Shown here: positions 14,626-44,865 of the stretch, in pieces
How the letters are laid out: every line of letters starts with the position of its first letter
Numbering within the stretch: position 1 is the first letter of the stretch
From: Myxococcota bacterium
Lineage (GTDB): Bacteria > Myxococcota_A > Polyangia > Fen-1088
Assembly: GCA_025934105.1 (NCBI GenBank)
Contig: JAICYS010000004.1
Location: 1-59,925, forward strand
Reading direction: 5' to 3'
DNA length: 59,925 nucleotides
Translations under genes and position numbers: made by a program
The notes under the pieces: model-generated
Told to the model about the DNA's origin: nothing
What the model saw: the letters and a program-made list of their open reading frames with translations, nothing else
The model's database searches: none

Positions 14626-15672
14626 CTATCTCCGGCGTCGCTTGTGGACCGGCTTGGGCGCCAGGTCTTGGTCGGTGGCCGACGGAGGCGGCGGCGCGGG
14701 CTTTTGCTCAGGGTGCTTCTTGTCCGGGCAGCCGTTCTTGACCGGATCGCTCGAGGCCGGGCCCGGCCGGGTTGGGCAGGCGTCGTCGGCGTCCGAGATG
14801 TTGTCGTTGTCGGTGTCGATGAACGGGCAGCCGGGGCGCTTCGGATCCGGACGGTCGCCGGGCGGCGTGACCGGGCAGGGGTCGTCGACGTCGGCCACGC
14901 CGTCGCCGTCCTCGTCGTTCTCGGGACAGCCGGGGCGGAACGGATCCGGGTGCTTGCCGACCGGCACCGTCTTGCACTGATCCTCGTCGTCGGCCACGCC
15001 GTCGCGGTCGGTGTCCGGGATGGTGATGTGCCAGATGCCGCGCCGGACGGGCCGCGGGGACGGCGCGCTGGCCGCCTCCGCCGCCCGCCCAAAATGGTAG
15101 GTCGCGCTGGCGCCGAGGCTCCAGGCCAGGCCGTCGTTGCTGGTGTTCCGGTCGGGGTTGATGAAGTCGGCGAACCGGAAGTAGGGCCCGACGCTGAACC
15201 CGGGCACCACCGGGAGATTGAACTCGGTGCCGATGCCCAGCTCGAACCCGAAACACCAGGCGTATCCCGTCGAGGCGGGGCCCAGCGCCAGATCGGCGAA
15301 CGCCAGTCCCCAGGGAGCGACCACCGGCTCGTAGCGCGCGCCCAGCCCGAACAGCAGCGCGTGATTCGGCCCGGGCAGCCAATACTGATGGAGGGCGAGC
15401 AGCGCCGCGAAACCGCGGCTCACGTCCAGGGTGCCGCGCAGCCCGGTGAAGAACAGGGTGCCGTCGGGTCCGGGCGATCGATTGAAGTCCGTGATGGTCC
15501 CGCCCACGCCCAGGTCCAGTCCCAGCGCCGAACGCATGGTCCAATCCGCCGACGGCGGCGGCGCCGCCTGGTCGCGCGAAAAAGAGGGAGCCGCCTGAGC
15601 GACGCCGGCCAGCAACGCGACAGCCGCGGTAATTCCGAAGAGGACCCGACGAAGCGGCGCGGGCACGGTCAT
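14626..15672 (-). CDS. Outer-membrane protein with thrombospondin type-3 repeats
   Basis: A 348-residue exported protein. It has a signal peptide (LLAGVAQA), a beta-barrel-like N-terminal domain to about residue 215, then three calcium-binding type-3 repeats (DTDRDGVADDEDQC, EDGDGVADVDDPC, DTDNDNISDADDAC) between residues 225 and 320, and a basic Pro/Lys/Arg tail. TSP3 repeats normally link the barrel to a C-terminal OmpA peptidoglycan-binding domain. That domain is absent here, so the protein ends just after the linker and a basic tail. A TATAGT hexamer on the minus strand (15684-15679) lies 6 nt before the ATG, which suggests a leaderless transcript. Confidence 0.82.
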   Translation of the reverse strand: MTVPAPLRRVLFGITAAVALLAGVAQAAPSFSRDQAAPPPSADWTMRSALGLDLGVGGTITDFNRSPGPDGTLFFTGLRGTLDVSRGFAALLALHQYWLPGPNHALLFGLGARYEPVVAPWGLAFADLALGPASTGYAWCFGFELGIGTEFNLPVVPGFSVGPYFRFADFINPDRNTSNDGLAWSLGASATYHFGRAAEAASAPSPRPVRRGIWHITIPDTDRDGVADDEDQCKTVPVGKHPDPFRPGCPENDEDGDGVADVDDPCPVTPPGDRPDPKRPGCPFIDTDNDNISDADDACPTRPGPASSDPVKNGCPDKKHPEQKPAPPPPSATDQDLAPKPVHKRRRR

Positions 15673-15721
15673 GGACCGACTATATTGCCAGAACCTCGAC
15701 CGGACGAAAGTTCGACGAGGG

Positions 15722-16234
15722 TCAGGGCAACCGCGCACTGCGCAGCCGCGAGAAGAAACCACGCAGGAGGGCCGCCCCTTCGGCCGCCAGAACCCCGGCG
15801 ACCACCTCGACGCGGTGATTGAGGCGAGGGTCGTCCACCAGCGAATACAGCGTCCGGACGGCGCCGGCCTTCGGGTCGTCGCAACCGAAATAGAGCCGCT
15901 TGATCCGCGCGTTGACCAGCGCCCCGGCGCACATCGGGCAGGGCTCCATCGTGACGAACAGCTCGGCGTCGCAGAGCCGCCAGCTCCCCAGCGCCGCCGC
16001 CGCCCGCCGCAGGGCCAGGATCTCGGCGTGGGCAGTGGGGTCGGCCCCGGTCTCCCGCTCGTTATGGGCGACCGCGATGATCTGCTCGCCGATCGCGACC
16101 ACCGCCCCGACCGGGACCTCGCCCCGACCGGCCGCCTCCTGGGCAGCCCCGAGCGCGCGCCGCATGAACGCAAGCTCGCGCTCGCCGGCTGCCGGGGCCG
16201 GCCCGCTGAACGACAGGGAGGCAGCGGTGGTCAT
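15722..16234 (-). CDS. tadA: tRNA-specific adenosine deaminase (A34 to inosine)
   Basis: A 170-residue zinc-dependent deaminase that makes inosine at the wobble base of tRNA-Arg(ACG). The catalytic Zn site is clear: HAE in PTAHAEILALRRAA and PCPMC in EPCPMCAGALV. RIKRLYFGCDDPKAGAV is also typical of TadA rather than of cytidine deaminase. It is divergent from the M48 protease gene; only 28 bp separate the two start codons, so they share a promoter region. Confidence 0.92.
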   Translation of the reverse strand: MTTAASLSFSGPAPAAGERELAFMRRALGAAQEAAGRGEVPVGAVVAIGEQIIAVAHNERETGADPTAHAEILALRRAAAALGSWRLCDAELFVTMEPCPMCAGALVNARIKRLYFGCDDPKAGAVRTLYSLVDDPRLNHRVEVVAGVLAAEGAALLRGFFSRLRSARLP

Positions 16235-16262
16235 CGGGAGGGCTTATTCTATTATCATTCCC

Positions 16263-17189
16263 GTGGCCAGACCCGAGGTGGATCTGTCGTTCGCGCGCTA
16301 CGTCGCGGCGCGGAAAGGCGAGGCGTCGGCCCGTTCCCGCGAGGGGGCGGCCTATGCCTATTCCGGAGACATCAAGGTGCGCGCGGCGCTGGACCGGGTT
16401 CGGCCGGTCACGCTGGCCGTGGAGGCCGCCGTCCGCCTCTGGCAGTCGATCGAAAAGGCCCGGATGCTGGGGACCTCGATCAAGGTGACGGCGCGCCAGT
16501 TCCCGCGCATCGCGAAGCTGGCCGAACGGTGCGCCGACACGCTGCGCATCCCGCTGCCGACGCTGTACGTGTCGCCCAACATCGGCTCGCTGAACGCGCA
16601 CACGTTCGGGACCGCCGAGGACCCGTACATCGTCATCAACGCGGCCCTCATCGACCACCTGTCCGAGACCGAGCTCTTGGACGTGATCGGGCACGAGTGC
16701 GGCCACATCCAAAACAATCACGTGGTCTACATGACCACGCTGCACTTCCTGACCCACGCGGCGAACGTGTTCCTTCGCTGGAGCGTGCGCCCGGCCGTGC
16801 TGGCGCTGAACGGCTGGGCGCGCCGGGCCGAGGTCACCTGCGACCGCGCCGGGCTCATCTGCACGCGCGACCTGGACGTGTCGATCGGCTGCCTGGTCAA
16901 GCTGGCCCTGGGCTCGCACAAGCTCTACAAGGACGTGAACTTGGACGAGTACCTGGCACAGCTCGACGAAGCGCAAAAGGGGGTGGGGCGGTTCGACGAG
17001 CTGACCCAGCGCCACCCGTACCTGCCCAAGCGGGTGCAGGCGCTTCGCCTGTTCGCGCAAACGACCTACTTCAAGTCGCTGACCGGCAGCGCGCGTCACG
17101 AAGCCGACGCCGGGGGCGCCGCGCCGGCCGGCACGTCCAAGCAGGAATGTGACGCCAAGGTCGCCGAGCTGCTGTCGGTGCTGCGGTGA
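16263..17189 (+). CDS. M48-family zinc metalloprotease
   Basis: A 308-residue peptidase with the HEXXH zinc motif as GHECGH (His144, Glu145, His148) and the downstream Glu ligand in AEVTCDRAGL (about Glu190). The preceding VSPNIGSLNAHTFG block is typical of the M48 group. There is no N-terminal signal. A moderately hydrophobic stretch after the active site (HFLTHAANVFLRWSVRP) may touch the membrane. Start GTG 16263 is inferred: TATTAT at 16250-16255 lies 7 nt upstream and no Shine-Dalgarno is near, so the message may be leaderless. Its stop overlaps the GTG of the first dynamin-like gene, which links the protease to the two GTPases. Confidence 0.85.
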   Translation: MARPEVDLSFARYVAARKGEASARSREGAAYAYSGDIKVRAALDRVRPVTLAVEAAVRLWQSIEKARMLGTSIKVTARQFPRIAKLAERCADTLRIPLPTLYVSPNIGSLNAHTFGTAEDPYIVINAALIDHLSETELLDVIGHECGHIQNNHVVYMTTLHFLTHAANVFLRWSVRPAVLALNGWARRAEVTCDRAGLICTRDLDVSIGCLVKLALGSHKLYKDVNLDEYLAQLDEAQKGVGRFDELTQRHPYLPKRVQALRLFAQTTYFKSLTGSARHEADAGGAAPAGTSKQECDAKVAELLSVLR

Positions 17190-18988
17190 GCGCCGCCACT
17201 CCGGGCGACGAAGGGGGCCTGGACGCGCGCAAGCAGGCCATCCGCGGCGCGCTGGCCGAACTGGGCGCGCTGGCCGATCGCGCCGGCCTGCCGTTCGCCG
17301 CGCGCGACATCCGCGAGACGCGCCTGCCCAAGCTGGACGACGAGCGGTTCGTGGTCGTGGTGCTGGGCGAGTTCAATCACGGCAAGTCGACCTTCATCAA
17401 CGCGCTCTTGGGCGCGCCGCTGCTGCCGGTCGGCATCACGCCGACCACCGCCGTGCTGTCCCACGTCTCGTACGGCCCGCGGCGGACCGCGACGCTGGTC
17501 GGCGAGGACGGCACGCGCCGGCCGGCCGACGCCGCAACGCTGGAAGATTGGCTGACCGTGGAAGGCGAGGGTCCCGGCAAGGCGGCGGTCCACCACGTCG
17601 AGCTGACCGAGCCGGTGCCGTTGCTGCAGAACCAGGTGACGCTGGTCGACACCCCGGGCGTCAACGACATCAACGAGCAACGGGCGGAGATCACCTACGG
17701 CTACCTGCCGCGCGCCGACGCCGCCGTGTTCCTGCTGGACGCGACGCAGATCCTGACCGCGTCGGAGCGGCAGTTCCTCGAGGAGCGGATCCTGCGCTCG
17801 ACGCGCGATCGCCTGCTGTTCGTGATCGCCAAGACCGACCTTCTGAGCGACGCCGAGCTGGACGAAACCGTGGCCTTTGCCCGCAAGCACCTGGCCGCGA
17901 TCGTCCCCCAGCCGGCCATCTTCCCGGTCTCCGCCAAGCGCGCGCTGGCCGGCGATCGGGGCGGCTCGGGGCTGGACGCGTTCGTGGCGGCGCTGGGCGC
18001 CACCGTCGAAAATCAGCGCCGCAAGCTGCTGCTGGACAACGCGCTGGCGGACGCCGGCCGGCTGGCGGGGTTCATCCGCCAGAGCCTGGCCATCCGCCGC
18101 CGCTCGCTGGAGCTGCCGGTCGCCGAGCTGGAACAGCGCATCGGGCGCGCCAAAGAGCGGCTGACGTCGGGCAAGAAGGTGCTGGAGACGGCGGCCACGA
18201 CGGTGCGCGCCGAGACGGCGGCGCTGAAGGCGCGCGTCCGCCAGGACCTGGCCGATTTCACGGCACGGCTGCGCGAGTCGCTGGTGGCCGACCTCGAGAC
18301 CGCCGACGCCGGGGACATCCGGCGGTACCTGTCGTTCTTCGTGCAGGACACCTGGAAGGCCTGGACCGAGGCCGAGGGCCGGGTGATCGCCGCCGAGCTG
18401 GAACATCTGGCCGAGACGGTGATCCAGGTGGCGAACGAGAACGTGCGCGAGGTGATCGAAGGGGTGTCGACCGAGCTGGGCCCGGCGGAGACCAAGGTCG
18501 ACATCAAGGTGGACACGCTCAAGTACGACGCCTCGGTGTTCGCGCTGGGCGCGCTCGGCACCACCGTGTTCCTTTTCGTCGACGGGCTGGTGGGGGGCGT
18601 GCTGACGCTGGCCGCGCCGCTGCTGGCGTTCCTGTTGCGCGGCCGCGTCGCCGCGCAGGTGAAGGCCGAGGCCAAAGCGCAAGCCCCGCAGGCGGTGGAC
18701 CGGGTAGCGGCCCTGGTGGGCCCCAAGCTGGACGAGATCGTCGACGGGTTTGGCGCGCGGCTGCTCGAGTTCGTGGTGCAGGCCGGCGACGCGCTGGCGC
18801 GCGGCATCGCCGACGTCCTGGATCGCGCGCTGGTCGAGCGCCGCGCCTCCGACGCGGCCACCGCCGCCAAACCCGACGTGGCGGGCGTCGACGCCACGGT
18901 GGCCGACCTGCGGAAGCTCGAAGAGCGCATCGCCGACATCCGGCAGAAGATCTGGACCCCCGGCGCCGACGACCCCGCCGCAGGCTGA
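17186..18988 (+). CDS. Bacterial dynamin-like GTPase (first of a pair)
   Basis: A 600-residue large GTPase. GTP-binding motifs: P-loop GEFNHGKST (residues 61-69), switch-I threonines in TPTTAVLS, DTPGV at 155 and AKTD at 215-218. A long helical stalk-like region follows, with alternating charged heptads. A strongly hydrophobic segment at about residues 452-492 (TTVFLFVDGLVGG...LLAFLLRG) could be a membrane-inserting paddle or transmembrane hairpin. Bacterial dynamin-like proteins remodel or protect membranes and often occur as tandem pairs. GTG start overlaps the protease stop, and the stop overlaps the next ATG (TGATG), so three genes are coupled. Specific role unknown. Confidence 0.88.
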   Translation: MSAATPGDEGGLDARKQAIRGALAELGALADRAGLPFAARDIRETRLPKLDDERFVVVVLGEFNHGKSTFINALLGAPLLPVGITPTTAVLSHVSYGPRRTATLVGEDGTRRPADAATLEDWLTVEGEGPGKAAVHHVELTEPVPLLQNQVTLVDTPGVNDINEQRAEITYGYLPRADAAVFLLDATQILTASERQFLEERILRSTRDRLLFVIAKTDLLSDAELDETVAFARKHLAAIVPQPAIFPVSAKRALAGDRGGSGLDAFVAALGATVENQRRKLLLDNALADAGRLAGFIRQSLAIRRRSLELPVAELEQRIGRAKERLTSGKKVLETAATTVRAETAALKARVRQDLADFTARLRESLVADLETADAGDIRRYLSFFVQDTWKAWTEAEGRVIAAELEHLAETVIQVANENVREVIEGVSTELGPAETKVDIKVDTLKYDASVFALGALGTTVFLFVDGLVGGVLTLAAPLLAFLLRGRVAAQVKAEAKAQAPQAVDRVAALVGPKLDEIVDGFGARLLEFVVQAGDALARGIADVLDRALVERRASDAATAAKPDVAGVDATVADLRKLEERIADIRQKIWTPGADDPAAG

Positions 18989-21621
18989 TGGGCATCCTCG
19001 ACCGCATCGCCGGACGGCTCGAGGAGCTGGGCACGGACCGGCGGGTGGCCGTGGCGGCCGAGGTCGAGCACGCCCGGGACGTCGCGCCGCTGGACCCCGC
19101 CGAGGCCGAGCGGCTGCTGCGCGACCTGGTGGCGCGGGTGCCGGAGGCCGCCGAAGCCCACCTGGCGCTGGGCGAGCTGCTGGCGGGCCGGGGCCGGCTG
19201 GAGGAGGCCATCGGATCGCTGGGGCGCGCGGTCGATTTGGCGTCGGGCCACGCCGAGGCCTGGTGCGCGCTGGGCGAGACGCTGGGCAAGCTGGGGCGCG
19301 CCGAGCCCGCCCGCGACGCGCTTCATCGGGCGCTGTCGCTGGCGCTGGATCCGGCGTTGCGCCGGCGCGCCCACGCCGCGCTGGGGAACGTGCACGCGGC
19401 GGCGGGCTGGCTGGCCCAGGCGGCGCGCGAGCTGGCGAAGGCGATCGAGCTGGCGCCCCCGGGCGACGACGACCGGCAGGTGGCCGTCGCGTACGGGCGG
19501 GTGCTGGCGCGGATGGGCGAGCCCGAAGCCTCCGAATGGCTGACGCGAGCGGCGCGGGCTGACGGCGCCGACCCGTCGCTGTTCGGCGAGGCCGCGCGCG
19601 CCACGCGCGATCAGGCGCGCGCCGAGGCGCTCCTGCGCGAAGGCCTGCGCGGCGCGCCCGACAACGTCGCGCTGCGGGCGGACCTGGTCGGCTGGCTGCT
19701 GGCGGCCGGCTGCGGCGACGAGGCCCTGCCGCTGGCCGAGGAGACGACCCGCGCGGCGCCCGACGACCCGCGGTCCTGGCGGGCCCAGCGGCAAGCCCTG
19801 GCCGCCGCCGGCCGCTGGACCGACGCGCTGGCCGCCGCCGAGAAGGAGCGGGAGCTGGGCGCGCCGCCGCCCTTCGCCGATCGGGTGGCGCTGGCCCTGG
19901 GCGCGGAAGATCCCGATCGGCTGCGCGAACTGGCCCAGGCGGCCGATGCGGCTGACGGCGGGCTGTTCCTGGCGCTCGGTGCGTGGGTGAGCGGCCGCGC
20001 GGCGGAGGCCGATCGTTTGCGGTTGGGGCGGCTGGCTCCCGGTCCGGCCGCCCGCCGGTTCATCGCCCGGCCGGCGCTGGCCCCACCGCCTTCGGGCGAC
20101 CTGGCTGGCCTCCTCGGCTGGGCGCACGAGCTGACCAGCCACACGCCGGCGCTGCTCGGCCTGGCGCCGGCGGCGGCCCGCGCGCTGGAGGCGTTCGATC
20201 GGCCGCTGCTGGTGGCCGTGATGGGTGAGTTCAACGCCGGCAAATCGTCGTTCGTGAACGCGGTGTGCGGCGCGGATGTCGCGCCGACCGGCGTCACGCC
20301 GACGACGGCGACCATCAACGTGCTCCGCTTCGGTGAGCGGCCCGAGACGCGCGTGGTGCGCCACGACGGCAGCACCGAGGAGGTCCGCGCGGCGGACGCC
20401 GCCACCTTCCTGGGAAATTTGCGCGACGAAGAGGCGCGCGCCATCCGCTCGGTCGAGATCTTCTTGCCGGTCGAGGCCCTCCGCCGCGTCGAGATCGTCG
20501 ATACGCCCGGCCTGAACGCCATCCGTCCCGAGCACGAGCGGGTGGCCCGCGACTTCTTGCGCGACGCCGACGCCATCGTCTGGGTGTTCGCGGCCGGGCA
20601 GGCGGCGAAGGCGACCGAGCGCGAGGCGCTGGCGGTGGCGCGGGCCGCCGGCAAGCGCGTGATCGGTGTGGTGAACAAGATCGATCTGGCCGCGCCGCAC
20701 GAGCTGAGGGCCGTCGTCCGCCACGTCGAGACGACGCTGGGGGATCTGGTCGACTCGATCATCCCGTTCTCGGCGACCTCCGCCGCCGAGGCGCGGCGAG
20801 CCGGGCGCGCCGACCCGGGGCTGGAGGCGCTGACCGCCGCGCTCGAGCGCCGGTTCCTGGGCGACGCGCGGGCGCGCACGCGGCAGACGGCGCTGGGCCA
20901 GCTGCGCCGGTTGGTCGAGAGCACCCGCGCCGCCACGCCGCCGCCCGCGCGCCCCGACTTCGCGGCCGCGCGCGCCGCCGACGCGCGGCTGCAGCGCGAG
21001 GTGCTGAGCGCGATCGACGCCGAGCGGATCGCGCTCGGGGCACGGCTGGACGCCGGCTATCGCCGGACCGCCGTCGAGGTGCGGGACTTCGTCCAGCCGC
21101 GGAGCTGGCTGTTCGGCGAGAACCGCGCCACCGCCGCCGACGAGGAGTTTCTGGCCGAGCTGCTCGAGGACGCCGTCGCCGGCGCGCTCGAAGGGACGCG
21201 CGCCGCCGTGACCGGCGCGTTGCACGCCGCCGCGGCGGACCCCCAAGCGGCGGGGCAGGGGGACCCCGACCTGGCCGCGCGGGTGACCCGCACCGTCGGC
21301 GGGGCCCTGGACATCTTCGCCGCGTACGCGCGCGGCGCCATCCAGGCCGGTGTGGTGCCCGACTTTTTCCGGCAGCAACTGCCGCGGCTGCGGCTCGAGC
21401 TGGGCGCCATTCGCGAGGCGCTGGCCCGCCGGGCGCCCAGCCCGGAAGCGCCGCTCTTCGCCGGACTCCGGCGCGAGCTGGACCTGGTCTTCAGCGAGGC
21501 GGCTGCGGCCCTGGACGAGCGCGCCGCCGACGAGGAGATGCGGGCCGTCATTCGCGAAGAAAGCCTGGCCCGCCCCCTGGACGCGCTGGCGCAGGCCGTC
21601 GCGGCGCTGGAGGCCGCCTGA
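18988..21621 (+). CDS. Dynamin-like GTPase with N-terminal TPR array (second of a pair)
   Basis: An 877-residue protein with about 330 residues of TPR-like helical pairs (AEAHLALGELLAGRGRLEEA and similar) ahead of a dynamin-type GTPase domain. GTPase motifs: GEFNAGKSS at 413-421, TPTTATIN, DTPG at 505 and NKID at 563. The C-terminal 270 residues are helical and charged. A weakly hydrophobic patch (ALDIFAAYARGAIQAG) is present, but there is no obvious transmembrane pair, unlike its upstream partner. I infer a heteromeric pair in which this member brings TPR-mediated partner recruitment and the other anchors to the membrane. It converges on mutM with 3 bp between stops. Confidence 0.87.
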   Translation: MGILDRIAGRLEELGTDRRVAVAAEVEHARDVAPLDPAEAERLLRDLVARVPEAAEAHLALGELLAGRGRLEEAIGSLGRAVDLASGHAEAWCALGETLGKLGRAEPARDALHRALSLALDPALRRRAHAALGNVHAAAGWLAQAARELAKAIELAPPGDDDRQVAVAYGRVLARMGEPEASEWLTRAARADGADPSLFGEAARATRDQARAEALLREGLRGAPDNVALRADLVGWLLAAGCGDEALPLAEETTRAAPDDPRSWRAQRQALAAAGRWTDALAAAEKERELGAPPPFADRVALALGAEDPDRLRELAQAADAADGGLFLALGAWVSGRAAEADRLRLGRLAPGPAARRFIARPALAPPPSGDLAGLLGWAHELTSHTPALLGLAPAAARALEAFDRPLLVAVMGEFNAGKSSFVNAVCGADVAPTGVTPTTATINVLRFGERPETRVVRHDGSTEEVRAADAATFLGNLRDEEARAIRSVEIFLPVEALRRVEIVDTPGLNAIRPEHERVARDFLRDADAIVWVFAAGQAAKATEREALAVARAAGKRVIGVVNKIDLAAPHELRAVVRHVETTLGDLVDSIIPFSATSAAEARRAGRADPGLEALTAALERRFLGDARARTRQTALGQLRRLVESTRAATPPPARPDFAAARAADARLQREVLSAIDAERIALGARLDAGYRRTAVEVRDFVQPRSWLFGENRATAADEEFLAELLEDAVAGALEGTRAAVTGALHAAAADPQAAGQGDPDLAARVTRTVGGALDIFAAYARGAIQAGVVPDFFRQQLPRLRLELGAIREALARRAPSPEAPLFAGLRRELDLVFSEAAAALDERAADEEMRAVIREESLARPLDALAQAVAALEAA

Positions 21622-21624
21622 CCT

Positions 21625-22449
21625 TCAACGCCGCTGGCACTTCGGGCAGAAGAAGGTCGCCCGCCCGCCGTCGACGCGGCGGCGAATGAGCGCGCCGCAC
21701 CGCCGGCACGGCCCGCCCTGGCGGCCGTAGACCAGCAAGGCGCGCGCGTTGTCCCCGCTGTTGCCGTCGGCGTCGACGTAGTCGCGCAGCGTGGTCCCCC
21801 GGCGGGCGATTCCCCCCTCGAGCACGGCGCGGATCGCGTCCAGCAGCGCCGGCGCGCGCGAGGCCGCCCGCCGCGCGGGCGTGGCCGGGTGGATGCGCGC
21901 CCGGAACAGCGCCTCGGCCACGTAGATGTTCCCCAAACCGGCCACCCGCCGCTGGTCCAGCAGGAACGCCTTCACCGGCGCGCGCGACGCGGCCAGCAGG
22001 TCGCGAAGCCGGGGCGCGTCCAGATCGCTCAGGGGATCCGGCCCCAGCGCCGCCAGGACCGCCAGCGCCGCCAGCGGTGTTCCCGCCGCCACCCAGCCAA
22101 ACCGGCGCGCGTCGGCGAACCGCAGCTCGCCGCCCCCGTCCAGCGTGAACACCACGTGTGTATGCGGGGCGCGCGGCGCCTCGGCCGGCTGCACGCGCAA
22201 GCGCCCCGTCATCCCCAGGTGCACGACGATCCCCGCGCCCGCCTCCTCGACCTCGATCAGCAAGTACTTGCCGCGCCGGTGGACGCGCCGGATCGTGCGT
22301 CCCACGGCCACCGCCCGCAGCGCGCGCAGATCGACCGGCCGATTGAGGTGCAGCGGCAAGCCGCTGCCCCAGACGGCCTCCACCCGGCGGCCCCGCAGGA
22401 CGGGCGCCAGGCCGCGGGCGATCGTCTCGACCTCGGGCAGCTCGGGCAT
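21625..22449 (-). CDS. mutM: Formamidopyrimidine-DNA glycosylase
   Basis: Bifunctional base-excision repair enzyme that removes 8-oxoguanine and formamidopyrimidines and nicks the abasic site. The 274-residue protein begins MPELPEVET, giving the catalytic N-terminal Pro and Glu. It carries the lysine of RRGKYLLIE, the HLGMTGRL helix-turn region, GLGNIYVAEALF, and a C-terminal zinc finger (CRRCG...CPKC). ATG 22449 is fixed by that N-terminus. It is the last gene of a tight minus-strand group, 2 bp after rsmA. Confidence 0.96.
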   Translation of the reverse strand: MPELPEVETIARGLAPVLRGRRVEAVWGSGLPLHLNRPVDLRALRAVAVGRTIRRVHRRGKYLLIEVEEAGAGIVVHLGMTGRLRVQPAEAPRAPHTHVVFTLDGGGELRFADARRFGWVAAGTPLAALAVLAALGPDPLSDLDAPRLRDLLAASRAPVKAFLLDQRRVAGLGNIYVAEALFRARIHPATPARRAASRAPALLDAIRAVLEGGIARRGTTLRDYVDADGNSGDNARALLVYGRQGGPCRRCGALIRRRVDGGRATFFCPKCQRR

Positions 22450-35173: not shown

Positions 35174-37922
<2,749 letters not shown>

Positions 37923-37941
37923 GTGAAACCGCGGCCGGCAA

Positions 37942-39042
37942 TCACGGGATGCGCCTCAAGCTGCCGCCGCGCACCTCGAAGTCAATGCGGTCGCCGCCGG
38001 CCGGAACCAGCTCGGGCTCGGTCACGGAGATCAGGGTCTGGCACTGGAGGCGCCCCACCACCTCGAACAGCAGCGCCCGGCGGCGAGCATCCAGCTCGCT
38101 CGGCACATCGTCCAGCAACAACACCGGTGGATCCCCGAGCCGCTCGCCGATCTCCATCAGCTCGGCCAGCTTCAGCGCCAGCATCAACGATCGGAGCTGG
38201 CCCTGCGACGCTTGCCCGCGCGCCAGGGAGCCCGCGAAGCCGATCTCCAGATCGTCGGTTTGCGGGCCGAAACCGGTGAAGCGCCGGCGCCCGTCCAGGG
38301 CCCGCCGCTGCGCCAGACCGCGCGCCAGGGCCAGGCGGACGGCCGTCTCGTCGCCGGCGGATTCCACCTCCTCGTGGCTCCGGTAGGTGAGGGAGACCGG
38401 GATGTCGCCGTGCAGCTCGCGGAAGAGCGCGGCAAAACGGGGCGCCAGCGCACCCGCCAGCGCGCGCCGGCGCACCACCACGCGCGCGCCGGTCCGCGCC
38501 AGCTCTTCATCGAAGGTGTCCAGCAGGGCCGGCTCGACGGCGCCCCGTTTGAGGAGCGCGTTCCGGTTGCGCAGCACCTTCTGGAACGCCGAAGCTTCGC
38601 CGTAATAGCCGCGCTCCAGGTTGAAGATAGCCAGATCCGCGAAGCGGCGACGGGCCGCCGGGGCGGACCGCGGCAGCAACAGGTCCTCGGGAACGAACAG
38701 GACCACCCGCAACGTCCCCAGGGCCGCCGCCGTGCTGCGAACCAGCTTGCCGTCGAGGCGAACCGTCCGCACCCCCGGCGCCAGGTCCAGCTCCAGCCGC
38801 CGCGACAGCGCGGCTTGATCGATCTCGGCCCGCAGGCGCGCCCCCGCGCCACCCCGCTGGATCAAGTCCTCCGCGTTGGTGGTGCGAAACGACCGGAAGG
38901 CGGCCAGGTAGTAGGCGGCCTCGATGACGTTGGTTTTTCCCTGGCCGTTGTCGCCGGACAGGACGGTCAGGCGCTCGCTCGGCTCCAGGCGCAGGGGCGC
39001 CAGGTTGCGCCAGGCCTGCGCCGCCAGCTCGCGGATCCGCAC
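37942..39042 (-). CDS. recF: DNA replication and repair protein RecF
   Basis: SMC-like ATPase that helps load RecA at gaps. The 366-residue protein has Walker A SGDNGQGKTNVIEA at the N-terminus, the ABC signature-like block LARGQASQGQLRSLMLALKLAE and Walker B PVLLLDDVPSELD. It begins 1 bp after the dnaN stop, the classical dnaA-dnaN-recF arrangement. Confidence 0.96.
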   Translation of the reverse strand: MRIRELAAQAWRNLAPLRLEPSERLTVLSGDNGQGKTNVIEAAYYLAAFRSFRTTNAEDLIQRGGAGARLRAEIDQAALSRRLELDLAPGVRTVRLDGKLVRSTAAALGTLRVVLFVPEDLLLPRSAPAARRRFADLAIFNLERGYYGEASAFQKVLRNRNALLKRGAVEPALLDTFDEELARTGARVVVRRRALAGALAPRFAALFRELHGDIPVSLTYRSHEEVESAGDETAVRLALARGLAQRRALDGRRRFTGFGPQTDDLEIGFAGSLARGQASQGQLRSLMLALKLAELMEIGERLGDPPVLLLDDVPSELDARRRALLFEVVGRLQCQTLISVTEPELVPAGGDRIDFEVRGGSLRRIP

Positions 39043-39043
39043 C

Positions 39044-40147
39044 TCACAGGCGCATGGGCATGACCACGCAAACGTAGTCGCTGCCGTCGCTGGGCCGGAC
39101 CACCGCGGGGTCCAGCTCGCCCGCCAGCTCGACGCGCACGTCGGGCGTTTCGATCTCGGCCAGCAAATCGATGAAGTAGCGCGCGTTGAACCCGATCTGC
39201 ACCGGCGTCCCCTTGTAGGCGATGTCGATCTCCTCGCGCGCAGCGCCCAGGTCCGGGTTGTCGCTCTCGATGCTCAGCTTGCCCTTGTCCAGGCCAAACC
39301 GCACGCCCGAGGTCTTGTCCGAGGACATCAGCGACACGCGCCGAAGCGCGTCCAGGAACGTCAGGCGCGGCAGCACGAAGGCGCGCTCGTTGTCCTTGGG
39401 GATGACCTGCTCGTACGGCGGGAACTGGCCTTCGATCAGCTTCACCGAGATGCCAACGTCGTCGGCCTTCAACACGAAGTTGCCGTCGTGAATCCCGATG
39501 GCCGTCGGCGCGTCGCGCGTCTCGATCGCCCGCCGCAGCTCGACGATGCCCTTGCGCGGGATCAGCACGCCGGCGGCCAGCTTGGGGCCCCCCGGCAGTG
39601 CCCGCGCCGCCTTGGACAGCCGGTGTCCGTCCGTGGAGACCATCCGGGCGATGTTGCCGTCCGACTCGAACAGCACGCCGGCCAGATGCTGGCGGGTCTC
39701 GTCCAGCGAGACGGAGAAAATCGTCTTGGCGATCATGTCGCGCAGCGCGGCCGTCTCGACCGAGAACGTCTGCGCCTCGGCGATGGCCGGCAACTTCGGG
39801 TAGTCGCGATCCGTCACGCCGACCACCTTGAATTCGACCTTGCCGCTCTTGATTTCGGCCCAGTTCTGTTCGGTCCGCTTCACCCGGACCTCGTCGTCCG
39901 GCAAGCCTTTCACGATCTCGTAGAGCTGCCGCGCCCCGACGGTCAGGCCGCCCTCCTTCTCGATCTTGGCGTTCAGCGTGACCTGCGTCGAGACGTTCAG
40001 GTCGGTGGCGCCGCACAGCAGCTTGTCCTTGCCGTCGGTGCGCAGGAGGACGTTGGCCAGGATGGGGAGCGTGCTCTTACGATCGGCGATCCCCTGGGCA
40101 AGGTACAGACCGCGAAGGAACTCGTCCTTCCGAATCTTGAACTCCAT
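39044..40147 (-). CDS. dnaN: DNA polymerase III beta sliding clamp
   Basis: Ring-shaped processivity clamp of the replisome. With start ATG 40147 the protein has 367 residues and begins MEFKIRKDEFLRGLYLAQG, as expected; AAGGAG lies just upstream, which favours it over an in-frame ATG at 40168. Family blocks include STLPILANVLL, LPAIAEAQTFSV, STDGHRLSKAARALPGG and the C-terminal PVQIGFNARYFIDLL ending VVMPMRL. It is followed 1 bp later by recF and preceded by the candidate origin region. Confidence 0.96.
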   Translation of the reverse strand: MEFKIRKDEFLRGLYLAQGIADRKSTLPILANVLLRTDGKDKLLCGATDLNVSTQVTLNAKIEKEGGLTVGARQLYEIVKGLPDDEVRVKRTEQNWAEIKSGKVEFKVVGVTDRDYPKLPAIAEAQTFSVETAALRDMIAKTIFSVSLDETRQHLAGVLFESDGNIARMVSTDGHRLSKAARALPGGPKLAAGVLIPRKGIVELRRAIETRDAPTAIGIHDGNFVLKADDVGISVKLIEGQFPPYEQVIPKDNERAFVLPRLTFLDALRRVSLMSSDKTSGVRFGLDKGKLSIESDNPDLGAAREEIDIAYKGTPVQIGFNARYFIDLLAEIETPDVRVELAGELDPAVVRPSDGSDYVCVVMPMRL

Positions 40148-40456
40148 CCGTGGCTCCTTTGTCTCCATTCAAACAGGAACCCTCAGAGGGCTCCTTGGAC
40201 CTCCCGCGCGGACTCGGCTGGGCACAGCCCATTCCGTCAACGCGGCTCTCTTCTATCTTTTTATTTAGATATTAAAAAGCAGATGTATTAGGGGCTGTGG
40301 GTTCTGTGGAGAACATCGGTTCTCCGTCGAGAAAGGGTGCTCCCGACCTTGTGGAGGGACCGGGGTGGGAACGGCTCCGAAGAAGTGGACGAACGGCCGG
40401 ACGGGGTTATGAGTGCTTCGTCCACACGTCCATCCACAGGACCCTGTGCACACACT
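40148..40456. other. Candidate oriC segment: AT-rich tract and DnaA-box-like sites between dnaA and dnaN
   Basis: A 40-bp tract at 40251-40290 has only 7 G/C bases, in a genome near 70% G+C, a strong candidate DNA-unwinding element. DnaA-box-like 9-mers follow it: TGTGGAGAA (40305-40313, reverse complement TTCTCCACA), TCGTCCACA (40418-40426), CCATCCACA (40430-40438) and CTGTGCACA (40444-40452). A perfect 7-bp inverted repeat GGAGAAC/GTTCTCC (40308-40325) overlaps the first box. The dnaN promoter must also lie here. No gene is seen. Confidence 0.7.
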
Positions 40457-41821
<1,365 letters not shown>

Positions 41822-41874
41822 CGTCCCCACCTGTCCACAGCCAGTGGTTCGAAAAATCCCTCAGGATTTCGGGC

Positions 41875-41906
41875 TCTATCACGCGGGATTCCTCTCTTTG
41901 TCCACA
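41875..41906 (-). promoter_or_regulatory. Candidate dnaA promoter with a DnaA box over the -35
   Basis: On the minus strand TGGACA (41904-41899), an 18-bp spacer and GATAGA (41880-41875). The 9-mer TTGTCCACA (41898-41906) on the plus strand is a good DnaA box and contains the whole -35 element, so DnaA binding should repress its own gene. Confidence 0.6.
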
Positions 41907-42237
41907 GCACATGGCGATACGAAGCCATCCCCTTCGGCCCACTCGGCGCGCGTGCCGGTTCGGGCCACCTCGGTCACCGCGCGAGGGGTGCGCGCGCAGT
42001 GCAGGTTCTGTATCAAACCGCTGCTCTACGCTTCAAGCGGCAATCCCGGACACGTCGGGCAAGCTCGCGAAAATCAGTCGAATAATTTTTTCAGGGTTGT
42101 TGCGGAAGCCAATCCGGGGCCCGGCGCGGACCCGGCGAAGGGCGCGTAAGTTAGCGCACCGGCGGGTGTTTTTCTGTCCGCGGCAGAGCTCTTCACAGGG
42201 CCGCGTTGGAATTCACGCCATTTTTTTGCCGTCGCGT

Positions 42238-42268
42238 GCGCTGATGCCCGTGTCATGGGCATCAGCGC
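42238..42268 (+). repeat. Perfect 12-bp inverted repeat
   Basis: GCGCTGATGCCC and GGGCATCAGCGC separated by 7 nt (GTGTCAT). It is not followed by a T-run on either strand, so it is not a terminator; a protein-binding site or origin structure is more likely. Confidence 0.75.
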
Positions 42269-42374
42269 GCGCCTCCATCGCCCCAATCCCAGAACCTCCG
42301 TCGGAGATCGGGTGCCCTCATGACGAACACCCGACACCGAAACGCGCATCCTCCGTCGGAAACGGACACCTGCA

Positions 42375-42404
42375 TTGACAGGGGCCGAGGGGGGGTGCTA
42401 TGCA
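42375..42404 (+). promoter_or_regulatory. Candidate rpmH promoter
   Basis: Perfect -35 TTGACA (42375-42380), 18-bp spacer, and TATGCA (42399-42404). The predicted leader to the rpmH GTG is about 45 nt and includes GGAGG at 42448-42452. Confidence 0.55.
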
Positions 42405-42457
42405 GTTCGGCCTTTGCGGGCGCGTGACGTCCGCCAGAAGGACACCCGGAGGACGCC

Positions 42458-42607
42458 GTGAAGAGGACCTTTCAACCGCACCGCAAGAGCCGCAAGCGCA
42501 CGCATGGATTCCGCAAGCGGATGAAGACGCGGTCGGGCCGAGAAGTGTTGCGGCGGCGCCGCCGCAAGGGCCGGCGCCAGCTGACCGTCTCGATCGCCAA
42601 GAAGTAG
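42458..42607 (+). CDS. rpmH: 50S ribosomal protein L34
   Basis: A 49-residue, highly basic protein starting at GTG with GGAGG 5 nt upstream. The sequence [20 protein letters not shown] followed by [10 protein letters not shown] is diagnostic of L34. It heads the rpmH-rnpA-yidD-yidC cluster and diverges from dnaA, the usual bacterial order around the origin. Confidence 0.96.
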
Positions 42608-42626
42608 GGTCTCGCGGAAGGGCTCC

Positions 42627-42977
42627 ATGTCCGCCGAAAGGGGCGAGCGGCTGCCACCGGCGGCGCGCGTACGACGGCGGCCGGAGTACCTGAGCATCCA
42701 GAACCGGGGCAGGCGAATCGGCGGCGCGCACCTGCTGCTGTTCGGCCTGCCGGGGACCGGGAGGCTCGGAATCACCGTCAGCCGGAAGATCGGCGACGCG
42801 GTCGAGCGCAACCGGGTCAAGCGCTGGGTTCGCGAATGCTTCCGGCGGGCGCGCGGCCAGTTCCCGCCGGACGTCGACCTGGTGGTCGTGGCGCGGCCCG
42901 GCGCGGCGGATGCCGGGTTCGGGCCGGTGTGCCGCGAGCTGAAAGCGCTGGCGGCTCGCTTTGGGGCGCCCCGATGA
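42627..42977 (+). CDS. rnpA: Ribonuclease P protein component
   Basis: Basic protein subunit of RNase P, which with the catalytic RNA trims the 5' leader of pre-tRNAs. The 116-residue protein carries [20 protein letters not shown] and [10 protein letters not shown], the RNA-binding signature. It begins 19 bp after rpmH and its stop overlaps the yidD start (ATGA). Confidence 0.93.
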
Positions 42978-43192
42978 AGTGGGTGCTGCTGCGCCTGCTC
43001 CGCCTCTACCGGCGGGTGCTGTCGCCGGGGCTGTCGCCGCGCTGCCGGTTCGAGCCGTCCTGCTCGGCCTACGCCGAAGAGGCCATCCGCGTGCACGGCG
43101 CGCTCCGGGGTGGAGCCCTGGCCGTCTGGCGGCTTCTCCGATGCCAACCTTTCGCTCGGGGTGGTATAGACCCGGTTCCCGGGCCGCGGTGA
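42974..43192 (+). CDS. yidD: Membrane protein insertion efficiency factor YidD
   Basis: A 72-residue small membrane-associated protein with the family core [19 protein letters not shown] and SAYAEEAI. The N-terminal amphipathic helix ([14 protein letters not shown]) likely binds the inner membrane. Its start overlaps the rnpA stop, and yidC follows 20 bp later, with which it is thought to cooperate. Confidence 0.92.
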
Positions 43193-43212
43193 CGGAGCGG
43201 GAACAATAAAAC

Positions 43213-44865
43213 ATGGAAAAGCGGGTCATCCTCGCGGTCGTCCTCTGCGTCGCGGTCCTGATGCTCTGGACGAAGCTGTTTCCGGTGAAGCCGCCGGCTC
43301 CTTCGACCAACCAACCGGCGGCCACGCAGCCGGCCGCACCCGCGGCGAGCGGGGGGGCCGTTCCGCCTACTCCGGCGGCCGGCCTGGCCGCGGCGGCGCC
43401 CGCGAACCCGGCGGCCAACCGCCCCGAGCAGCTGGTCACGATCGACACACCCGAGGTGCAGTTCGTGTTCAGCAGTCTCGGTGGTCGCCTGGCCCACGCC
43501 CGGCTGCGCGCGCCGAAGTACCTGGCCCGGCCCCATGACCTGTCGAGCGGCCGCGATCTGGTCGACACCCTCGGGCCCCGTGAGGCGCCCTTCGGCACGA
43601 CCTTCCCCGACTCCGGGTTTACGGCGCCGGCCGACGGCGCCTGGGAGGTCAGGCGCCCTGATGCGCGGACCGTCGTGTTCGCGGTGGACAGCGGCACCGC
43701 CCACATCGAGAAGCGCTACATCGTCGACACGACCCAGTACCGCGTCCACCTGGACGTTTCGGTGGCGAACCGCGGCCAGCAGCCGGTCAGCCACCACCTG
43801 GCGCTGTCGCTGGCCGGCCATCAAGACCCCGAGAAGCGGGGCGGTGGCTTCATGTCGGGGTCGTCCGCCAATCTGTCGTCGGTGCTGTGCGCCGTCGACG
43901 ACAAGGTCGAGCGCCGGCCGATCGAAAAGCTGACCAAGGACCCGCTGGACAAGCTGGGCACGATCCGTTGGATCGGCTCCGACGAGAAGTTCTTCCTGCT
44001 GGCCGCCGTTCCATATCCCGAGACGCCGCCGCAGCAGCGGCGTTGCGCCACCACGCCGCTGCCCGACGGGTCGGGGCGGATCACCCTCTCGTTCGCGGAG
44101 CGCAGCGTGGCGCCGCAGGCGACGACCACGTACTCGTTCGCGATCTTCGCCGGTCCCAAGATCATCACCGACCTCGACGCGGTCCGGCCCGGCGGCGAGG
44201 ACGCCAAGCTGGATCAGGCGGTCGACGTCAGCCTGGCGTTCCTGTCACGCCCCATCCTGTCGCTGCTCAAGCTGTTTTACAGCTTCGCGCACAACTGGGG
44301 GCTGGCGATCATCCTGCTGACCCTGTTCATCAAGCTGGTCACCTTCTACCCGACGCAGAAGTCGCTGCTGTCGGCCAAGAAGATGCAGAAGCTGGCGCCG
44401 AAGATGAACGCCATCCGGAAGAAGTACGAGAACGACCGCCAGCGGCAGTCCGTCGAGACGATGAACCTCTACAAGGCGCACGGCGTGTCGCCGTTCGGCG
44501 GCTGCCTGCCCAGCCTCATCCAGATGCCGATCTGGATCGCGCTCTACTCGACGCTGAACTATGCCGTCGAGCTCTATCGCGCGCCGTTCGTGTTCCACAT
44601 CCACGATCTCACGGCCAAGGACCCGTTTTACGTCACGCCGCTTCTGATGGGCGGGGTGATGTTCCTGCAGATGCGGATGTCGCCCTCCGGCGCCGACCAG
44701 CAACAGCAGCAGATGATGTCCTACATGATGCCGGTGATGTTCACGGCCTTTTCGCTGTTCCTGCCCGCGGGGCTCGCGCTCTACATGCTGACCAGCTATC
44801 TGATCGGCATCCTGCAGCAGCTCTACGTGAACTATCTGGATCGCAAGGGCGCCACCGCCGTCTGA
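43213..44865 (+). CDS. yidC: Membrane protein insertase YidC
   Basis: Inserts proteins into the inner membrane alone or with SecYEG. The 550-residue protein has the Gram-negative layout: N-terminal transmembrane helix (ILAVVLCVAVLMLWTKLF), an Ala/Pro-rich linker, a large periplasmic domain (residues about 70-330) and a five-helix insertase core with LFYSFAHNWGLAIILLTLF, PTQKSLLSAKKMQKLAPKM and SLIQMPIWIALYS. In the first core helix the groove position usually held by Arg appears to be Lys (LFIKLVTFYP). jag, the usual next gene, is not here. Confidence 0.96.
   Translation: MEKRVILAVVLCVAVLMLWTKLFPVKPPAPSTNQPAATQPAAPAASGGAVPPTPAAGLAAAAPANPAANRPEQLVTIDTPEVQFVFSSLGGRLAHARLRAPKYLARPHDLSSGRDLVDTLGPREAPFGTTFPDSGFTAPADGAWEVRRPDARTVVFAVDSGTAHIEKRYIVDTTQYRVHLDVSVANRGQQPVSHHLALSLAGHQDPEKRGGGFMSGSSANLSSVLCAVDDKVERRPIEKLTKDPLDKLGTIRWIGSDEKFFLLAAVPYPETPPQQRRCATTPLPDGSGRITLSFAERSVAPQATTTYSFAIFAGPKIITDLDAVRPGGEDAKLDQAVDVSLAFLSRPILSLLKLFYSFAHNWGLAIILLTLFIKLVTFYPTQKSLLSAKKMQKLAPKMNAIRKKYENDRQRQSVETMNLYKAHGVSPFGGCLPSLIQMPIWIALYSTLNYAVELYRAPFVFHIHDLTAKDPFYVTPLLMGGVMFLQMRMSPSGADQQQQQMMSYMMPVMFTAFSLFLPAGLALYMLTSYLIGILQQLYVNYLDRKGATAV

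Follow-up and report, generated by a model that had tools for sequence, protein, structure and literature searches.

An M48-fold protein encoded with two dynamin-like GTPases in bacteria: a possible dynamin partner whose protease active site has repeatedly been lost

What does a protein with the fold of an M48 protease do beside two dynamins, and does it have to cut them to do it? Bacterial dynamins are common, and little is known of their partners and regulation. In OMA1-OPA1 an M48 protease is paired with a dynamin, and the original prediction for the present locus was a similar, protease-controlled remodelling of membranes. The window, that is, the whole stretch of 59,925 nucleotides from a Myxococcota bacterium that was analysed, carries at 16263-21621 of the + strand three overlapping genes, for an M48-fold protein, the dynamin-like GTPase DLP1 and the TPR-dynamin DLP2; ORFs, Pfam and hydropathy confirm the HEXXH protease, the dynamin with a hydrophobic segment and the TPR-GTPase that had been proposed. 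The features of the locus are as follows.

16228..16255, + strand: promoter-like site, TGGTCA-16-TATTAT; its end is 8 nt upstream of the M48 start codon
GTG 16263..TGA 17189, + strand: M48-fold gene, 308 aa
16692..16706, + strand: HECGH zinc-binding/catalytic motif (H144, E145, H148)
16830..16832, + strand: E190, third zinc ligand (AEVTCDRAG)
GTG 17186..TGA 18988, + strand: DLP1 gene, dynamin-like GTPase, 600 aa
17366..17389, + strand: DLP1 P-loop GEFNHGKS, residues 61-68
18530..18655, + strand: DLP1 hydrophobic hairpin, residues 449-490 (hydropathy; conserved in Myxococcota DLP1s)
ATG 18988..TGA 21621, + strand: DLP2 gene, TPR-dynamin, 877 aa
19045..20070, + strand: DLP2 TPR superhelix, about residues 20-361 (Pfam, model, Foldseek)
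20224..20247, + strand: DLP2 P-loop GEFNAGKS, residues 413-420
20800..21618, + strand: DLP2 helical stalk, residues 605-877 (predicted structure)

The M48 and DLP1 genes overlap by 4 nt (GTGA) and DLP1 and DLP2 at TGATG; the GTG start at 16263 is backed by the aligned start of an 83%-identical relative. The promoter-like site, the sole sigma-70-like site in 15600-22000 (against 0.1 expected), lies within or adjoining the 28-bp gap that separates the M48 gene from the divergent tadA. No terminator-like site was found between the three genes, and the one inside DLP1 is at chance level. We read the three genes as a single operon behind the promoter-like site.

The 308-aa protein matches Peptidase_M48 (Pfam, 5e-23), and its HExxH, E190 and C-terminal HPxxxxR are all intact. 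The M48 fold, HExxH and downstream Glu that characterize peptidase family M48 are together in the window protein, a combination broken in 23 relatives; the protein is a putative metalloprotease for which cleavage is possible. Hydropathy gives no transmembrane segment. Foldseek searches with its AlphaFold2 model (pLDDT 86.9) return ZMPSTE24/Ste24p and HtpX as the best matches, with modest E-values. When the family profile was compared with four E. coli M48 proteins, HtpX scored 54.9, LoiP 32.6 and YcaL 28.1 bits, and BepA gave no match. An OMA1-type identity was rejected, as the family is no closer to LoiP and YcaL, the OMA1-like M48 proteins of E. coli, used as stand-ins for OMA1, than to HtpX, and the window protein has no transmembrane anchor. 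HtpX itself was rejected as well (NCBIfam HtpX, 41.8 bits against a cut-off of 341; no transmembrane helices). A tree of M48s places the dynamin-linked family apart with weak support; a single clade of all linked M48s is not rejected (p-AU 0.30), one Clostridia copy (L238) grouping with unlinked M48s.

Both GTPases belong to the dynamin superfamily (Dynamin_N, 1e-29 in DLP1 and 4e-26 in DLP2, the latter with TPR families), with the P-loop, DTPG and G4 Asp of a dynamin-type GTPase domain (G1-G4) conserved in each; the GTPase motifs are kept across all DLP1s compared. The solved structures nearest to DLP1 are BDLP1 (2j68), Cj-DLP1 (5owv_A) and IniA (6j72), and its hydrophobic hairpin is likely a membrane paddle. 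The DLP2 model (pLDDT 80.6, pTM 0.58) combines the TPR superhelix, a GTPase domain and a long helical stalk; its top PDB match in Foldseek is Cj-DLP2 (5oxf_C), followed by IniA and BDLP1, and hydropathy finds no transmembrane or hydrophobic segment in it. A helical neck/trunk and a membrane tip in one partner are thus indicated by the DLP2 model and Foldseek and by the hydropathy hairpin of DLP1, and DLP1/DLP2 are putative GTP-dependent membrane-binding or remodelling proteins. The TPR-dynamin, flagged as unusual in the original prediction, proves real by Pfam and model, and several families of the class share it; a literature search, whose coverage mostly excluded subscription journals and preprints, turned up no paper on such a fusion. 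A ribonuclease HII-like gene lies 3' of the TPR-dynamin in several of these families (L110, L111, L127, L128, L129, L207).

The linkage of protease fold and dynamin is conserved among relatives, a refutation test that the original prediction had set for itself and passes, and reaches two more phyla. Of 79 resolvable Myxococcota DLP1 loci, 77 have an M48 gene directly upstream in the same orientation, at a median gap of about 63 bp, three further loci ending at contig edges and falling outside the 79; in the two exceptions (G051, G082) the M48 gene is kept on another contig. In G082 the unlinked copy (L048 / G082:C93) lies downstream of a gene encoding cNMP-binding and patatin phospholipase domains. 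Conversely, when GTDB genomes were scanned with the M48 protein as query, 49 relatives came up, with a dynamin adjoining in 48. Strong DLP1 occurs in 31 of 59 relatives and the M48 subfamily in all 31; five more, family f6, have a divergent DLP1 with a divergent M48, and in the remaining 23, five from the window's own family among them, neither is present. These counts are of genomes, mostly metagenome-assembled, with gene calls outside the window from a simple purpose-written caller, and the loci and genomes are evolutionarily non-independent. None of five other Myxococcota dynamins is linked to M48, and sister M48 proteins with HELGH or HEIGH are without dynamin linkage. Likewise, no dynamin is annotated alongside distant plasmid M48s (Tsukamurella, Thermus, Rhodococcus, Bernardetia), and no M48-dynamin fusion was seen among the loci read. 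One genome with an M48-linked cluster also has three clustered dynamin-like proteins without an M48 gene (L126:2387-10051, G034:C83); elsewhere, three tandem M48 homologues, HELGH being present in one only, adjoin two P-loop proteins (L239:6143-8614, G330:C5).

The same M48 subfamily adjoins dynamins in Chloroflexi and Clostridia, so that the linkage is found in three phyla, although strong matches are rare (2/118 Chloroflexi and 5/121 Clostridia genomes). The order is M48-DLP-DLP in Chloroflexi (L062 and, independently, G416, G482 and G443; G452 is cut by the contig end) and DLP-DLP-M48-DLP in Clostridia (L063-L079, G299); G282 and G361 are arranged differently. Because gene orders differ while the partners are the same, a functional tie, rather than one inherited arrangement, is indicated. 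Small zinc-ribbon proteins recurrently adjoin the dynamins and the M48 gene in the Clostridia clusters L063-L079. In L237:5905-12973 (G282:C15), an M48 gene (HECGH) and a gene for a 555-aa hairpin protein without a Pfam GTPase match, possibly a pseudo-GTPase dynamin, precede two dynamins.

If the M48-fold protein acted solely by cutting, its active site should not be dispensable, and it is here that the relatives speak most clearly. Active-site states were scored in the DLP1-anchored Myxococcota set (78 genomes) by reading H144, E145, H148 and E190; the first genome scan, with HECGHIQN as a single pattern, was left out of these counts. All four residues are intact in 55/78 genomes, and HExxH and/or the third ligand is lost in 23/78. 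The cultured Lujinxingia vulgaris (locus L050) has an intact active site. The replacements include QQCGH with E190V in the window's own family (G008), RECGR with E190D or V (G019, G027, G035, G051), RQFGK (G058), HHCGH (G025), RTLGY (G057), RQLGH/RALGH (G166, G222, G254) and HQLGH (G033, G041), a natural E-to-Q change that keeps all zinc ligands; in f6 the motif is absent, the clade being very divergent and its motif alignment less certain. On the DLP1 tree there are at least 7 changes of active-site state, 6 of them forced by well-supported branches. Counted as irreversible, the losses number 11 or 12 depending on the root, and 8 without f6 and long branches; if catalysis cannot be regained, the active site was apparently lost separately about 8-12 times. 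That the replacement residues differ between lineages argues that the losses are independent, and that several are common to different genomes or genera argues against assembly errors.

The catalytically dead copies remain full length and, G051 aside, linked. The dead pair G035/G027, compared over 264 codons, gives a dN/dS of 0.025, where active pairs give 0.03-0.19, this one low-divergence pair being the source of the strong constraint; for G041/G033 and G022/G038 it is about 0.3, the same as for their dynamins. Outside f6, dead copies lose E145, E190, N111-A112, Q79 and mostly H251-P252, and keep F10, Y31-A32, P48-V49, G147, N151, H153, W185, T192, D194-A196 (including R195), R257, A260 and F264. 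N111-A112 aligns with what, by analogy with BepA N105-F110 (PMC8423444), would be the M48 edge strand. Judged from these residues, selection on the dead copies is shifted away from the cleft, and the retention of D194, R195 and R257 may reflect fold maintenance alone. DLP2-bearing lineages account for 15/17 scorable dead M48 copies against 10/46 active ones; in the comparison of catalytic loss with DLP2 presence 2/4 independent pairs differ, which is not significant.

A dead partner kept under selection implies that cutting cannot be the sole job of the protein. We put at about even chances a model in which the operon encodes a membrane-remodelling complex, with the M48-fold protein as a dedicated binding or assembly partner of DLP1 and proteolysis as an option. 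Through its hydrophobic hairpin DLP1 would hold on to the cytoplasmic membrane, DLP2 would be the soluble dynamin that partners DLP1, with the TPR arm bringing in further proteins, and the M48-fold protein would be a dedicated cytosolic partner of both. Using surfaces away from the catalytic cleft, the M48-fold protein may bind DLP1 or intermediates in DLP1 assembly, and so help in the assembly or regulation of DLP1; in genomes with a surviving active site, the window's own included, it may also cleave DLP1, DLP2 or misassembled forms for quality control. Binding would be the constant role, and proteolysis an ancestral extra, kept here and repeatedly discarded elsewhere. A counterweight is that the active site is conserved in most of the lineages scored, which suggests that proteolysis matters in many of them. 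More tentatively, and with slightly less confidence, we propose a widespread bacterial dynamin complex with an obligate M48-fold third subunit, repeatedly a pseudoprotease, that serves as a catalysis-independent chaperone or regulator of dynamins. Natural active, E-to-Q and dead versions of the partner amount to an experiment already set up on the control of a dynamin by a protease fold, and the same series bears on how proteases turn into pseudoproteases.

The same data can be read as OMA1-like control, in which membrane stress leads the protease to cleave a dynamin and so switch its activity, the dead copies being secondary decay. The intact residues of the window protein and of most Myxococcota copies fit this reading, HExxH is also intact in the linked copies read from Chloroflexi and Clostridia, and protease and GTPases, all predicted to be cytosolic, would be able to meet. 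However, the repeated losses occurred with the gene and its position retained under purifying selection, the M48 protein is neither OMA1-type nor membrane-anchored, and the dynamins lack a cleavable N-terminal anchor. We consider such control unlikely, and, as far as the comparison of genomes goes, the OMA1 analogy put forward in the original prediction fails as a general mechanism.

A role of the co-transcribed M48 protein in general membrane-protein quality control, without contact with the dynamins, is less probable still. HtpX-type M48 relatives do carry out general quality control, and HtpX is the E. coli protein that scores best against the family profile; yet one M48 subfamily is exclusively paired with DLPs across the three phyla in different gene orders, M48 and DLP1 are absent together and present together even when unlinked, and the pseudoproteases would be incapable of the proteolytic version.

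The genomic setting bears on a last reading. The neighbours of the operon are housekeeping genes (tadA, fpg, ksgA, tsaD, rnhB), and in the window's class the cluster adjoins fpg-ksgA-tsaD and/or rnhB in several families; since this synteny is common to several families, the locus looks old and vertically inherited, and not like a defence island. Bacterial dynamins can protect membranes (DynA), and weak PADLOC matches to LeoA/LeoBC might suggest an anti-phage or other conflict system built on dynamins, but these matches fall mostly over generic GTPase regions, the neighbours keep their synteny across families and no dynamin-linked plasmid or phage copy was seen in the plasmids and phages examined, so that we regard this as very improbable. 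PADLOC, plasmid and phage searches gave no convincing defence-system identity, and membership of LeoA/LeoABC was also rejected (LeoA/HP0731 NCBIfam, 26.6 bits against a cut-off of 325; PADLOC matches partial). By eye, from the translations, gyrB, recF, dnaN, dnaA, rnpA and yidC lie at 35347-44865, and the replication-origin region is seemingly within the window, with the dynamin operon about 20 kb away.

The attractive mitochondrial analogy is thus replaced by a testable alternative, and the differences from OMA1-OPA1 are of several kinds: OMA1 belongs to another subfamily and is anchored, many of the bacterial partners are catalytically dead, and OPA1 has an N-terminal membrane anchor, which neither DLP1 nor DLP2 has. 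BDLP1 and IniA share with DLP1 the GTPase, helical trunk and membrane paddle, and an M48 partner is undescribed for either; in literature that mostly excluded subscription journals and preprints, we found no description of an M48 protein with a bacterial dynamin. LeoA/B/C of E. coli are likewise tandem bacterial dynamins, with weak profile matches to ours; unlike the window operon, they lie in a pathogenicity island, and a protease and TPR are unmentioned in their description (PMC4159319). Bacterial dynamins typically work as heterotypic pairs with adjacent genes (PMC6104087; PMC4159319), and a close parallel is Cj-DLP1/Cj-DLP2 of Campylobacter, two different dynamins adjacent in an operon (PDB 5owv/5oxf, PMC6104087). 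The dynamin pair of the window is of this heterotypic kind, as DLP1 matches chain A and BDLP1, and DLP2 is best matched to chain C in both sequence and fold; in contrast to the Campylobacter operon as described, an M48 partner and a TPR array are present here, and DLP1 has a clear hydrophobic hairpin. For the M48-fold protein, the comparison is with BepA, an M48 protein of E. coli that promotes LptD assembly and breaks LptD down when it stalls, in chaperone-like and protease roles (PMC8423444). The likeness is functional only, an M48 fold with protease-independent action, for BepA is periplasmic with LptD as its client and the window protein is predicted to be cytosolic and is linked to dynamins; nonetheless, this duality is a comparable precedent within M48 for a partner that binds and, in some lineages, may also cut.
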